A stretch of 64,000 nt of DNA from Methanolobus psychrotolerans (GCF_002243045.1 NZ_MBKP01000005.1:62001-126000); one strand, 5' to 3'; shown: positions 42,945 through 46,481, counted from the first letter of the stretch. Numbers and translations are program-made. Notes: generated by a model from the sequence alone, not told the origin.

Positions 42945-43028
42945 ATGGCTAAGACCATATCCTCAATAAACGAAAAATCAGCAATCCAATTAGTGGAGGC
43001 TGTACTCAGGGGAGAGAACTATGTATGA
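42945..43028 (+). CDS. 27-aa ORF overlapping the metallopeptidase start
   Basis: The ATG at 42945 opens a frame (MAKTISSINEKSAIQLVEAV..., ending GENYV) whose TGA at 43026-43028 overlaps the start of the M4 gene by eight bases in another frame. The product is a typical amphipathic helix. It could be a small peptide of the modification system, a leader peptide controlling translation, or the original N terminus separated by a frameshift. The bases before it form a possible hairpin with CTTAG/CTAAG arms (42921-42940). Confidence 0.4.
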   Translation: MAKTISSINEKSAIQLVEAVLRGENYV

Positions 43029-45132
43029 GCCTGTTAAGAAACAGAAAGATGTATTAGAGAATCTTAGGAAAACAGACCCTAATATTGAGATCAAATGGGA
43101 TGAAAAAACGGGTAGTCCACTGCGGGTAAAGGGAATACTTGCCCGATCAGGGCAGAAAGATCCCGGAAATGCTGCCATGGAATTCATGGATGCGAACAAA
43201 GAGCTCTTTTTATTGAATTCTGTGCAAAAGGAGATGCTGCTCAAAAAGGTATATACTGACAGGATTGGTATTCGACATGTCCGCATGCAGCAGATATACA
43301 AAGAACTGCCTGTATTTGGCAGCGAAATAATCGTTCACATTGACTCTAATGACAATATAAAAGGAACAACAGGAAAGCTGGCACCAAATCTGGACCTGCC
43401 GGATAAACCCAAAATTACAGATGAGCAGGCTATCAAAGCGGTGCTGAGTGATGACAGGAACAATTCCAGGCCACGTTTACATGCAGAACCTACTCTGATA
43501 GTACTTTCACAGTTTGTGGAGGAGCCACATCTTGTGTGGCATGTGACCGTTAACGGTACAGACAAAGATCTCGGCGGGGATGAAACACCTGCAAAATGGG
43601 AATACTTCGTTGATGCATTAACCGGGAAAATTGTCTGGAAATACAATAATGAGCAGACACATACCAGAACCACTGGTTCCGGAATAGGAAGATATGCGGG
43701 TGCGATGACGATTAACACATTACATGACCATGGCACTGCCAAATATCTGCTTGAGGACCAATGGGTGCCCAGCACTGCAAGGATAATAACCCACGATGCC
43801 GACGGTGGCTATCCCCCTGCAGCCATTTCTGAAGACGATAACAATAACTGGTCTGCAGCTACTCAAGGACCTGATGTTGATTGTCACCTATATACGAGAA
43901 TGGTCTATGACTATTTCTTTACTGTACACGGACGTGACAGCTACGATGATGCCGGCGCTGACATGCATATCTATGCCAACTGCGGAGTAAACTGGAACAA
44001 CGCATCATGGAACGGCAGTTATGTCAAGATAGGCAATGGTGACGGAATACGCTATGATCCACTTTGTGCGCTGGATATAATCGCACATGAATGGACACAT
44101 GCGGTGACAGGATACACTGCAGATCTTGTATATAGTAACGAATCCGGTGCCCTGAATGAATCCATGTCAGATGTCTTTGCCGCGCTTATAACTGGTAACT
44201 GGCTCTTTGGAGAAGATGCCTGGCTGCTTGCGTCTGCACCTGCATCACGCAATATGGAAGACCCTACCAATGGAGGCCTGTACGACCCGGCAAACCCTAT
44301 AGACAGTGTTCTTGCGGGCCATCAGCCGGACCATATGACAGACAAGTATGTCGGTTTCTCTGACAATGGCGGTGTACATATAAACAGCGGTATCATGAAT
44401 AAAGCCGCCTACCTGATAGCAACCGGCGGTACTCATCGTGGTATCAGGATATGCGAGGGACTTGGACGTGATGTACTAGGTATTCTTTACTACCAGGCAC
44501 TTACAACACACCTTGTCTTAAGCTCTGATTTCAGCGATATGCGGGATGCTGTACTTGATTCACTTGATGATCTCTATGCAGCCAATCCACATTACTCACG
44601 CTGGAGAGCAAGTATAATCAATGCGTTTGCTGCTGTCGGTATTGGTACAGCGGTCATCTGCCCGCTGATATGCTGGATAGCGCCATTCATCTGCCCACCA
44701 TCACCACACATCATCTGTCCGCCTGCACCGGGTTTTGTATGTCCGCCTTCTCCATACATCTGCCCGCCCGCACCGGACCTGCTATGCCCGCCCTCACCGA
44801 TGATAGTATGCCCGCCTTCGCCTTATATCTCATGTCCTCCGTCACCAGGACTTTCATGTCTGCCAGGACCTGACCCACTACCATACATCCCGGATATACG
44901 AGTCAGGCTACCGGAAATTACACTGAAAACAGACCTGATAGAAATTTCGGGAATTGGTCATGAAACTGCGGTCCTGTTCAAGGGAAGATCGATCTTGACA
45001 TTGGGAGATTTCCTGAAGGCTACGGAGAATCCGAAGAAGATCACTGAACTTTCACATGCTCTTGGAATATCAGAAGCAAAGATACACGACTGGAGAAAGA
45101 AGACCCTTGTTATGATTGGGGAAATAAAGTGA
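43021..45132 (+). CDS. M4 (thermolysin-like) metallopeptidase with Cys-Pro-Pro repeat tail and helix-hairpin-helix
   Basis: The order is: FTP propeptide (about 10-60), PepSY-like propeptide (about 115-205), M4 catalytic domain (about 210-540) with H356, E357, H360 of HEWTH and E380 of GALNES, and the late His of GGVHINSG (about 452). Residues about 546-620 hold ten cysteines, with seven C-P-P-[SA]-P units spaced 7-8 residues apart. A helix-hairpin-helix end follows (IEISGIGHETAVLFKGRSIL). No signal peptide is present, unlike secreted thermolysins. GTGA links its stop to the radical SAM gene. The repeat region is a likely substrate for that enzyme; this is inference. Confidence 0.9.
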   Translation: MYEPVKKQKDVLENLRKTDPNIEIKWDEKTGSPLRVKGILARSGQKDPGNAAMEFMDANKELFLLNSVQKEMLLKKVYTDRIGIRHVRMQQIYKELPVFGSEIIVHIDSNDNIKGTTGKLAPNLDLPDKPKITDEQAIKAVLSDDRNNSRPRLHAEPTLIVLSQFVEEPHLVWHVTVNGTDKDLGGDETPAKWEYFVDALTGKIVWKYNNEQTHTRTTGSGIGRYAGAMTINTLHDHGTAKYLLEDQWVPSTARIITHDADGGYPPAAISEDDNNNWSAATQGPDVDCHLYTRMVYDYFFTVHGRDSYDDAGADMHIYANCGVNWNNASWNGSYVKIGNGDGIRYDPLCALDIIAHEWTHAVTGYTADLVYSNESGALNESMSDVFAALITGNWLFGEDAWLLASAPASRNMEDPTNGGLYDPANPIDSVLAGHQPDHMTDKYVGFSDNGGVHINSGIMNKAAYLIATGGTHRGIRICEGLGRDVLGILYYQALTTHLVLSSDFSDMRDAVLDSLDDLYAANPHYSRWRASIINAFAAVGIGTAVICPLICWIAPFICPPSPHIICPPAPGFVCPPSPYICPPAPDLLCPPSPMIVCPPSPYISCPPSPGLSCLPGPDPLPYIPDIRVRLPEITLKTDLIEISGIGHETAVLFKGRSILTLGDFLKATENPKKITELSHALGISEAKIHDWRKKTLVMIGEIK

Positions 45133-46481
45133 GTTTTGGGCAAAACGCACCGGGAGCTGCTCCCGGACCTTTTTCTATTTTGGAGAGAAATGAGCTTGTG
45201 CCATATTTCCCCTTCAAGATAAACAGGGACGACAAAATATGGGTTATAACAGACCCTTTTACAGGATATGAACGTGAACTGAATGAGGCTGCCTTCTGGC
45301 TTTTGAAACTTTGTGACGGGTACAGGACACTTGATGAGATCATCACGGAAATTTCAGGAGCTTATAATGCTGATCGGAAAAATGTCTTTGACATGAGTGC
45401 TCCCCTGCTTAAAAAGCTTACAGATGACGGGGTTCTCTGGTGGCGCAGGGAAAGACTGAGCTACTGGAAACTTCCGGCTCCTGCCGGGGTTCTCTGGGAC
45501 CTTACATCAAGATGCAATCTCAGGTGCAGGCATTGTGTTGTCAGCGCAGGAGAGGCAGGCCGGGATGAGTTAAGCTTTGGTGATTGCTGCAAACTGATAG
45601 ATGATTTTGCAACCTTCAGCATCCCGCAGTTGATACTAAGCGGAGGGGAGCCAATGATAAGAAATGACTTTTTCGACATTGCAGGATATGCAGCCGAAAA
45701 AGGCATACTGATCCAGGTTGCTACTAACGGGACATTGATAGATGAGACTGCTGCACAGCGACTTGCCAGTATAGGTGCCTGTGTGCAGGTGAGTCTTGAT
45801 TCTTCTGAACCTGCTGTGCATGACAATTTTCGTCAGTGCCCCGGTTCATGGCAGAAAACCATGAAAGGTATTGAACTTCTTATCAAGGCAGATGTCCCTG
45901 TTACCCTTGCAGCTACGGTGACCACAATGAACATTGATAATATCCCCCGTCTTTATGAGCTTGCAAATGAAATGGGGATAACGACATTCCGCATTCTCCC
46001 CTTTGTTCCTTTTGGACGAGGCAAGTATGCCGATGAACTGGAAGTGGCTCCTGCAAGAATGAGAGAGCTGACCATGTTTCTACATTCTGAAAAAGAGAAG
46101 GATGGTATCAATATAGCTCCAATGGAATTCGAGTGCACTTTCAGCCCGCCCCATGGACATGGGATCGATGCCGGCACAAGAATAGGGTGTGATGGTGCGA
46201 TTTCCTACTGCACTGTCACATCCAGTGGTGAAGTGCTCCCATGCAACTACTTTTCGGGAGCGCAGACGGAGAATGTCAAAGAGAAGGATTTCCGGTGGAT
46301 ATGGGATAATTCACGTTTCCTCAATTATTTCAGAAGCCTGAAAGCCTCGGATGTAAAAGGTTTTTGCCAGGATTGCAACTGGCTTCCCGTTTGCAGGGGA
46401 AGCTGTATTGCAGCGAATTTTGCCCACGGAGATATATTCCAGTCGAACTGCCATTGCTGGCTGGTACATCCGGAGAAATGA
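45129..46481 (+). CDS. PqqD-radical SAM-SPASM protein (RiPP-maturase-like)
   Basis: Residues about 20-105 look like a PqqD-type peptide-recognition domain (INRDDKIWVITDPFTGYERELN, LLKLCDGYRTLDEIITEIS). The radical SAM cluster is C129, C133, C136 (CNLRCRHC), and the barrel has LILSGGEPMIRNDFF. The C-terminal SPASM part has many cysteines (GCDGAISYC, LPCNYF, CQDCNWLPVCRGSC, CHC) for auxiliary Fe-S clusters. It starts at a GTG overlapping the stop of the metallopeptidase by four bases, so both are co-translated. The architecture is that of PqqE-like enzymes that install cross-links in peptides. Confidence 0.92.
   Translation: MSFGQNAPGAAPGPFSILERNELVPYFPFKINRDDKIWVITDPFTGYERELNEAAFWLLKLCDGYRTLDEIITEISGAYNADRKNVFDMSAPLLKKLTDDGVLWWRRERLSYWKLPAPAGVLWDLTSRCNLRCRHCVVSAGEAGRDELSFGDCCKLIDDFATFSIPQLILSGGEPMIRNDFFDIAGYAAEKGILIQVATNGTLIDETAAQRLASIGACVQVSLDSSEPAVHDNFRQCPGSWQKTMKGIELLIKADVPVTLAATVTTMNIDNIPRLYELANEMGITTFRILPFVPFGRGKYADELEVAPARMRELTMFLHSEKEKDGINIAPMEFECTFSPPHGHGIDAGTRIGCDGAISYCTVTSSGEVLPCNYFSGAQTENVKEKDFRWIWDNSRFLNYFRSLKASDVKGFCQDCNWLPVCRGSCIAANFAHGDIFQSNCHCWLVHPEK

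Follow-up and report, generated by a model that had tools for sequence, protein, structure and literature searches.

This study concerns a pair of overlapping genes in Methanolobus psychrotolerans, located at positions 42,945 to 46,481 of a 64,000-nucleotide stretch of its genome (GCF_002243045.1 NZ_MBKP01000005.1:62001-126000). The whole stretch is referred to here as the window, and coordinates given without a locus name are those of the window, all on the + strand. The pair consists of an M4 peptidase bearing a C-terminal tail of cysteine (Cys) repeats and a radical S-adenosylmethionine (SAM) enzyme of the type that matures ribosomally synthesized and post-translationally modified peptides (RiPPs), and our analyses suggest that the two form a protein-modification unit.

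The M4 Peptidase and its Cys-Repeat Tail

The first gene of the pair (43021..45132) encodes an M4 (thermolysin-type) metallopeptidase of 703 amino acids (aa), which was characterized by its Pfam domains (viz. FTP, PepSY, Peptidase_M4, and Peptidase_M4_C) and by hydropathy. An inhibitory propeptide region (43240..43632; FTP at residues 74-119 and PepSY at residues 131-204) is followed by the catalytic and alpha-helical domains at residues 218-541 (43672..44643; M4 218-363 and M4_C 367-541). The active-site motifs, viz. the zinc-binding/catalytic motif HEWTH (residues 356-360; 44086..44100), NES (residues 379-381), and GGVHIN (residues 450-455), are complete in the window protein and invariant in an alignment of nine Methanolobus M4 copies, and the HExxH motif with downstream Glu and His that characterizes the M4 family is present both by these motifs and by the Pfam M4 and M4_C matches. 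A secretion signal is usual in the M4 (thermolysin) family, though not required. No signal peptide was found in this protein, the highest 15-residue hydropathy within its first 60 aa being 0.01, and the open frame upstream of its start codon extends for only 9 codons. Because there is no hydrophobic N-terminal stretch and no room for one in the open frame upstream, the peptidase is probably cytosolic as made.

The catalytic domains are followed by the Cys-repeat tail (residues 547-613; 44659..44859), which contains ten Cys at spacings of 4, 7, 8, 8, 7, 8, 8, 8, and 8 residues, nine of the ten fitting the motif C-x-x-[SAG]-P. Within it lie seven CPP[SA]P units (residues 558-609; 44692..44847). 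A preliminary description of this DNA had reported an M4 peptidase lacking a signal peptide, with its active-site residues kept and with a ten-Cys tail of seven such units, and in these respects our results agree with it; of the C-terminal end that it described, the Cys repeats are confirmed, and the helix-hairpin-helix is a weak match below the cut-off (HHH_5, E 0.0028; residues 638-691, 44932..45093). Beyond the tail, the Methanolobus copies have a further conserved domain of ~85 aa at the C-terminus.

Among the tail units of the window, an average of 3.1 of 5 third codon positions differ, vs. 0.5 of 10 at the first and second positions, and between Methanolobus species the unit cores differ at 1-2 of 40 residues vs. 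18-24 of 40 third codon positions. Few residues have thus changed while many third positions have, and the protein sequence of the tail is therefore under purifying selection.

The Radical SAM Enzyme

The second gene (45129..46481) overlaps the first by the tetranucleotide GTGA (45129..45132), which contains its GTG start and the TGA stop of the peptidase gene, and translational coupling of the two genes is therefore likely. No Rfam element was found upstream of the gene pair. The product, the predicted tail maturase, is a 450 aa enzyme with three Pfam domains, which was examined by Pfam, NCBIfam, alignment, a structure model, and Foldseek. Its N-terminal PqqD domain, corresponding to a RiPP recognition element (RRE; residues 39-102, 45243..45434), scores 28.3 bits against a cut-off of 23.4 (PF05402, E 2.2e-6) and is predicted to fold as beta-strands followed by three helices (model pLDDT 77.6). 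The Radical_SAM domain (residues 125-278) contains the CxxxCxxC motif (C129, C133, and C136; 45513..45536), which is invariant in 15 of 15 homologues, and the seven-Cys motif of the SPASM region (C354, C372, C413, C416, C422, C426, and C443; 46188..46457; Pfam SPASM at residues 354-417), in which two auxiliary clusters are expected, is likewise invariant among the 15 homologues. The preliminary description had named these three domains and the gene overlap, and the PqqD/RRE-like character that it assigned to the N-terminal region is upheld by the profile match.

Among solved structures, both the sequence profile and the fold place SkfB, PqqE, CteB, and SuiB nearest to the enzyme, and all four are matched by its model in Foldseek with a probability of 1.0. 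In its RRE, both Cys motifs, and its predicted maturase fold, the window enzyme is by sequence and model a RiPP-type maturase of the RRE-radical SAM/SPASM kind. Its best NCBIfam match is AhbD (E 7e-68), yet this match, at 229 bits vs. a cut-off of 500, is far below the threshold, as are those to MftC (172/265), StsB (128/625), and PapB (88/340). Hence, profile scores place the enzyme in no single named NCBIfam maturase family tested.

Co-occurrence of Enzyme and Tail

The distribution of the enzyme was determined by a profile search over all 186 genomes of the order, in which the RRE-type enzymes score at least 463 bits and AhbD-like paralogues (~350 aa) no more than 314 bits. Twenty-three RRE-type enzymes were identified, 14 in Methanolobus and nine in other members of the order. 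In 14 of the 27 Methanolobus genomes the enzyme and the tail pattern are present together and in the remaining 13 neither is found; the chance of such a perfect match is ~1 in 20 million, a figure to be read with the non-independence of genomes of shared ancestry. Six of the pair loci come from named genomes, including M. vulcani, M. bombayensis, and M. profundi, and the number of tail units ranges from 7 to 9 among the Methanolobus copies. All 23 RRE-type enzymes adjoin a carrier of the tail or the 3' end of one, and a Cys-repeat is present in each of the 22 cases in which the tail region is visible.

The converse was also observed. M4 relatives without an adjacent enzyme have no tail, nor do the caspase-like relatives (described below) that lack the enzyme; the truncated caspase-like genes of genomes G473 and G474, where the contig ends before the tail, are uninformative. 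The tandem CPP pattern is absent from all other genes of the 186 genomes, except for an unrelated match in G495 that was discarded as low complexity, and the reversed pattern gave no match. Clusters of at least four C-x-x-[SAG]-(x)-P motifs within 90 residues were sought in 8,031 open reading frames from 220 loci (1.47 Mb, many of them overlapping) and were found only in tailed carriers and in one antisense tandem repeat in G134. In a control set of 78 loci two were flagged, which proved to be the G013 and G001 carrier loci themselves (L060 and L053 being G001 and G013, respectively), and a motif cluster was found in none of the 76 true control loci beside other radical SAM genes. The G134 match was discarded as an antisense reading of a short tandem repeat: at L069:6356-6706 a tandem TGGTGTACC-type repeat mimics a CTPSPTTW tail in its antisense frame and shows no sign of translation. 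Thus, the survey of genome context proposed in the preliminary description gave perfect co-occurrence within the genus with a variable unit number, and repeats without a radical SAM partner, which would have spoken against its proposal, were not found in the 186 genomes or in the 220-locus scan.

These genome searches covered archaea of one phylum (the order and a sample of the phylum) and, for bacteria, collections of plasmids, phage families, and viral contigs. Outside the order, a related RRE-radical SAM gene of G166 (L146:4053-8311) is divergent from the adjacent gene for an M43 metallopeptidase, so that the neighbour is again a peptidase. Because this peptidase lacks a Cys tail, the locus was not counted; the G166 enzyme was, moreover, itself part of the A3 profile, and no more were found in the class of G166 (4 genomes). 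A phage or plasmid origin of the pair was considered and rejected, as plasmid and viral-contig collections contained no close relatives and PHROG gave no meaningful match; membership in a defence system was also set aside, the only matches being to generic viperin and subtilase domains.

Carriers of the Tail

The proteins adjoining the RRE-type enzymes are of four types, viz. the M4 peptidase, an S8 subtilase, a putative caspase-fold peptidase, and a contractile injection system (CIS) protein. The S8 subtilase is found in G131 and G500 (genus g6) and carries CPPAPKICPPGPIR or CLRGPIQ repeats; the G131 assembly breaks within the repeat, and its two halves were joined by inference. Both S8 loci also encode a 106 aa protein directly after the radical SAM gene (L070:1861-2178 in G131 and L179:6509-6832 in G500). 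It is homologous to the prodomain at the N-terminus of the adjacent S8 peptidase (33% over 76 aa, E 2e-9) and is probably a free-standing inhibitor of the protease or an aid to folding.

The carrier of G001, G013, and G143 is a protein of 317-349 aa with invariant HYDHG and STVSC motifs and with tail repeats of the forms C[RK][TS]GLP and C[ANSG]AGP. By these motifs it is a putative caspase/C25-type (clan CD) peptidase; it has no Pfam match and no solved relative, and its AlphaFold model is poor (pLDDT 41). A conserved accessory gene lies upstream in caspase-like loci (L147:9065-9769, L181:4549-5163, L180:8253-8531, and L206:4969-5673), whose product has a transthyretin-like domain (a weak Pfam match) and/or a conserved GRMVxxTLDKGRLEL region. 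Short caspase-like proteins that have neither a tail nor a radical SAM neighbour, and that give no Pfam peptidase match, are encoded at L208:2472-3185 (G030) and L209:3641-4390 (G072), and these are possibly undescribed clan CD peptidases.

The fourth carrier occurs in four genomes of another family (G092, G088, G056, and G052; f5/g16), is 1,171-1,395 aa in length with C[PLT]AG[KQ]P repeats, and has no peptidase domain; in G052 only its last 80 residues are present on the contig. Its N-terminus, tested in G056, gives a partial match to CIS13 (E 1.2e-25, below the curated cut-off), its neighbours include CIS12 (E 1.3e-68) with a phage-tail domain, eCIS_core, and other cargo-like proteins, and in G056 a sheath gene lies 18 kb from it. 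This carrier sits in a contractile injection system locus. At L071, L072, L073, and L074 the radical SAM gene is paired with the CIS13-type protein and with eCIS_core (DUF4157) cargo candidates, and no description of radical SAM enzymes together with contractile injection systems or DUF4157 was found in the literature searched. A link of the M4 pair itself to such systems was rejected, there being no sheath gene in the genome of the window, in G033, or in G049.

The tails of all four types share the motif C-x-x-[Ser/Ala/Gly]-(x)-Pro. A small residue (Ser, Ala, or Gly) is found at the third position after the tail Cys (Cys+3) in 90% (M4), 85% (S8), 71% (caspase-like), and 97% (CIS) of cases, as compared with 21, 18, 27, and 29%, respectively, after shuffling of the non-Cys tail residues, and Pro is present at Cys+4 or Cys+5 in 75-90% across the tail types. 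A tree built from the radical SAM and SPASM domains groups the enzymes of the M4, S8, and CIS carriers together with support of 97/94, and PqqD is also detected by Pfam in the partner enzymes of the S8 and CIS carriers.

Proposed Function and Alternative Explanations

We propose, with a probability of roughly 0.6, that the gene pair is a post-translational modification unit that equips a large protein with a multi-thioether tail. The enzyme would recruit the neighbouring peptidase through its RRE domain and would then put several cross-links into the tail, each C-x-x-[Ser/Ala/Gly]-(x)-Pro unit receiving one. Because the enzyme always lies beside a tailed protein and the same motif recurs on four unrelated proteins, the tail is very probably its substrate, and this linkage and shared motif support the corresponding suggestion of the preliminary description. 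That thioethers are made in the tail is likely, if less so. The most likely product would be a ladder of small, unnested thioether rings, each closed by a bond from the Cys sulfur to the small Cys+3 residue at its alpha carbon. This arrangement is proposed because of the precedent of GggB, which in streptosactin joins Cys25 to Ser28 and Cys31 to Gly34 to give two unnested four-residue rings (PMC8172795); the choice of acceptor, which follows from analogy, is tentative, with odds just short of even. The outcome would be a compact or rigid, reduction-proof tail that is kept on the mature protein and may serve folding, localisation, export, or attachment. Retention of the modified tail is somewhat the more probable course, because the tail is also carried by a non-peptidase CIS protein and, in the M4 protein, precedes a conserved domain.

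Several observations weigh against this proposal. The tail of G088 is short and irregular, no separate leader peptide was identified, the C-terminal modules beyond the tail differ from carrier to carrier, and a Cys-rich tail might serve to bind metal or to form disulfides instead. Pfam missed the PqqD domain in the partner enzyme of the caspase-like carrier of G001, where it is seen by alignment only, and the enzymes of the caspase-like carriers fall on long branches outside the M4/S8/CIS group and are not firmly of the same clade. The arrangement of enzyme and tail would accordingly be either old, with much divergence, or have arisen more than once, and either origin, old or repeated, strengthens the link between the two. 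The sampling, moreover, comprises one archaeal order plus a phylum sample.

Among the alternatives, a different change of the tail, viz. links of the ranthipeptide type to beta or gamma carbons, C-C links, oxidation of Cys, or epimerisation, is unlikely, though less so than the others, as RRE-bearing SPASM enzymes perform all of these reactions and the window enzyme falls far below the cut-off of every NCBIfam maturase family tested. However, the conserved small residue at Cys+3 fits the streptosactin spacing (PMC8172795), and no Asp, Glu, Asn, or aromatic acceptor is conserved at a fixed spacing. A fusion of precursor and protease, in which the enzyme modifies the tail, the peptidase cuts it off, and the freed peptide or peptides act as antimicrobials or signals, is rather improbable; it remains a serious rival because three of the four carrier types look like peptidases, and of unrelated kinds (M4, S8, and, by motif, caspase-like), and both the variable number of units and the M36-type peptidase encoded near two of the CIS loci (G092 and G088) would suit it. 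The CIS carrier without a peptidase domain and the conserved ~85 aa domain beyond the M4 tail argue against such release, as do the lack of a conserved cleavage site between units and the lack of an exporter gene beside the pair in the Methanolobus loci inspected. Precursor and maturation protease in one polypeptide, the other half of the earlier interpretation, is for the same reason, a CIS carrier that has no peptidase domain, not established.

It is improbable that the tail binds a metal or cluster or forms disulfides while the enzyme acts elsewhere, for example as an AhbD-like haem enzyme. The rank of AhbD as top NCBIfam match would favour this, but a separate AhbD-like paralogue of ~350 aa exists in the genomes, the profile matches to such paralogues begin only after the RRE region, and the strict pairing is kept across four unrelated carriers. 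Coincidental adjacency could draw on the facts that a single archaeal order is well sampled and that the Methanolobus copies are of common ancestry; against the perfect co-presence (14 vs. 13 genomes) and the independent carriers in at least four lineages, it is strongly disfavoured.

Relationship to Known Systems and Significance

No described system of this layout was found in the literature searched, from which subscription papers were mostly absent, in keeping with the statement of the preliminary description that none was known. A close likeness to the proposed modification unit is that of streptosactin and GggB (StsB family), where a SPASM radical SAM enzyme acts at a Cys-x-x-Ser/Gly spacing that matches the tail motif; however, the short streptosactin precursor is cleaved to a 14-mer, whereas here tails of 7-20 Cys are found on proteins of 300-1,400 aa, and the StsB profile scores the window enzyme far below its cut-off. 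The short precursor peptide gene typical of sactipeptides is absent, the neighbour of the enzyme being a 703 aa peptidase or another large protein. QhpD, which acts on the QhpC subunit of quinohemoprotein amine dehydrogenase, is also a SPASM enzyme and introduces several thioethers, its substrate being a protein subunit rather than a short RiPP (PMC8172795), and its system likewise includes a protease, the subtilisin-like QhpE. The QhpD links are to methylene carbons of Asp or Glu and involve no repeats, whereas in the present pair the putative substrate is part of the peptidase itself and Asp/Glu are not conserved.

In the freyrasin (PapA/PapB) and SCIFF/CteB ranthipeptide systems a SPASM enzyme also acts on repeated Cys motifs (Cys-X3-Asp in PapA), and CteB, which has an RRE, is close in solved fold to the window enzyme; these systems differ in their small precursors and in their Asp or Thr acceptors, in place of which a small residue before Pro is found here. 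The poly-cyclopropylglycine system TvgA/TvgB resembles the present one in that a radical SAM enzyme acts repeatedly on a tandem motif (PMC9062424), but the repeat is TVGG, the bond is C-C, and the precursor is free and small. Branches 7 and 8 of the graspetide ATP-grasp enzymes share with our loci the association of a modifying enzyme with unrelated peptidase families and no visible precursor, and their authors suggest that the peptidases supply peptides from other proteins (PMC8939145); these enzymes are, however, ATP-grasp ligases rather than radical SAM enzymes, and no Cys tail has been reported for them. As ideas, the action of QhpD on a protein subunit and these ATP-grasp loci come nearest to the present pairing.

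What is known of RRE-bearing radical SAM maturases comes mainly from enzymes acting on short peptide precursors, QhpD with its protein subunit being a known exception. Here the same architecture is linked to the repeat tails that large proteins of methane-making archaea carry, and a single motif has been retained as the tail moved from one unrelated carrier to another. If the tail is the substrate, it would extend these enzymes to a novel type of target, and C-x-x-[SAG]-(x)-P provides a concrete motif with a testable chemistry. The broader view, to which we give an even chance, is of a general archaeal protein-modification system in which RRE-SPASM enzymes decorate the exchangeable C-terminal Cys-x-x-small-Pro tails of unrelated large proteins, both cytosolic peptidases and injection-system proteins, with multi-ring thioethers. 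The question is then raised of why peptidases so often carry the tail. If this view is true, RiPP chemistry would have been turned into a modular protein tag in these archaea, and the system may offer a route to a genetically portable multi-thioether tag.

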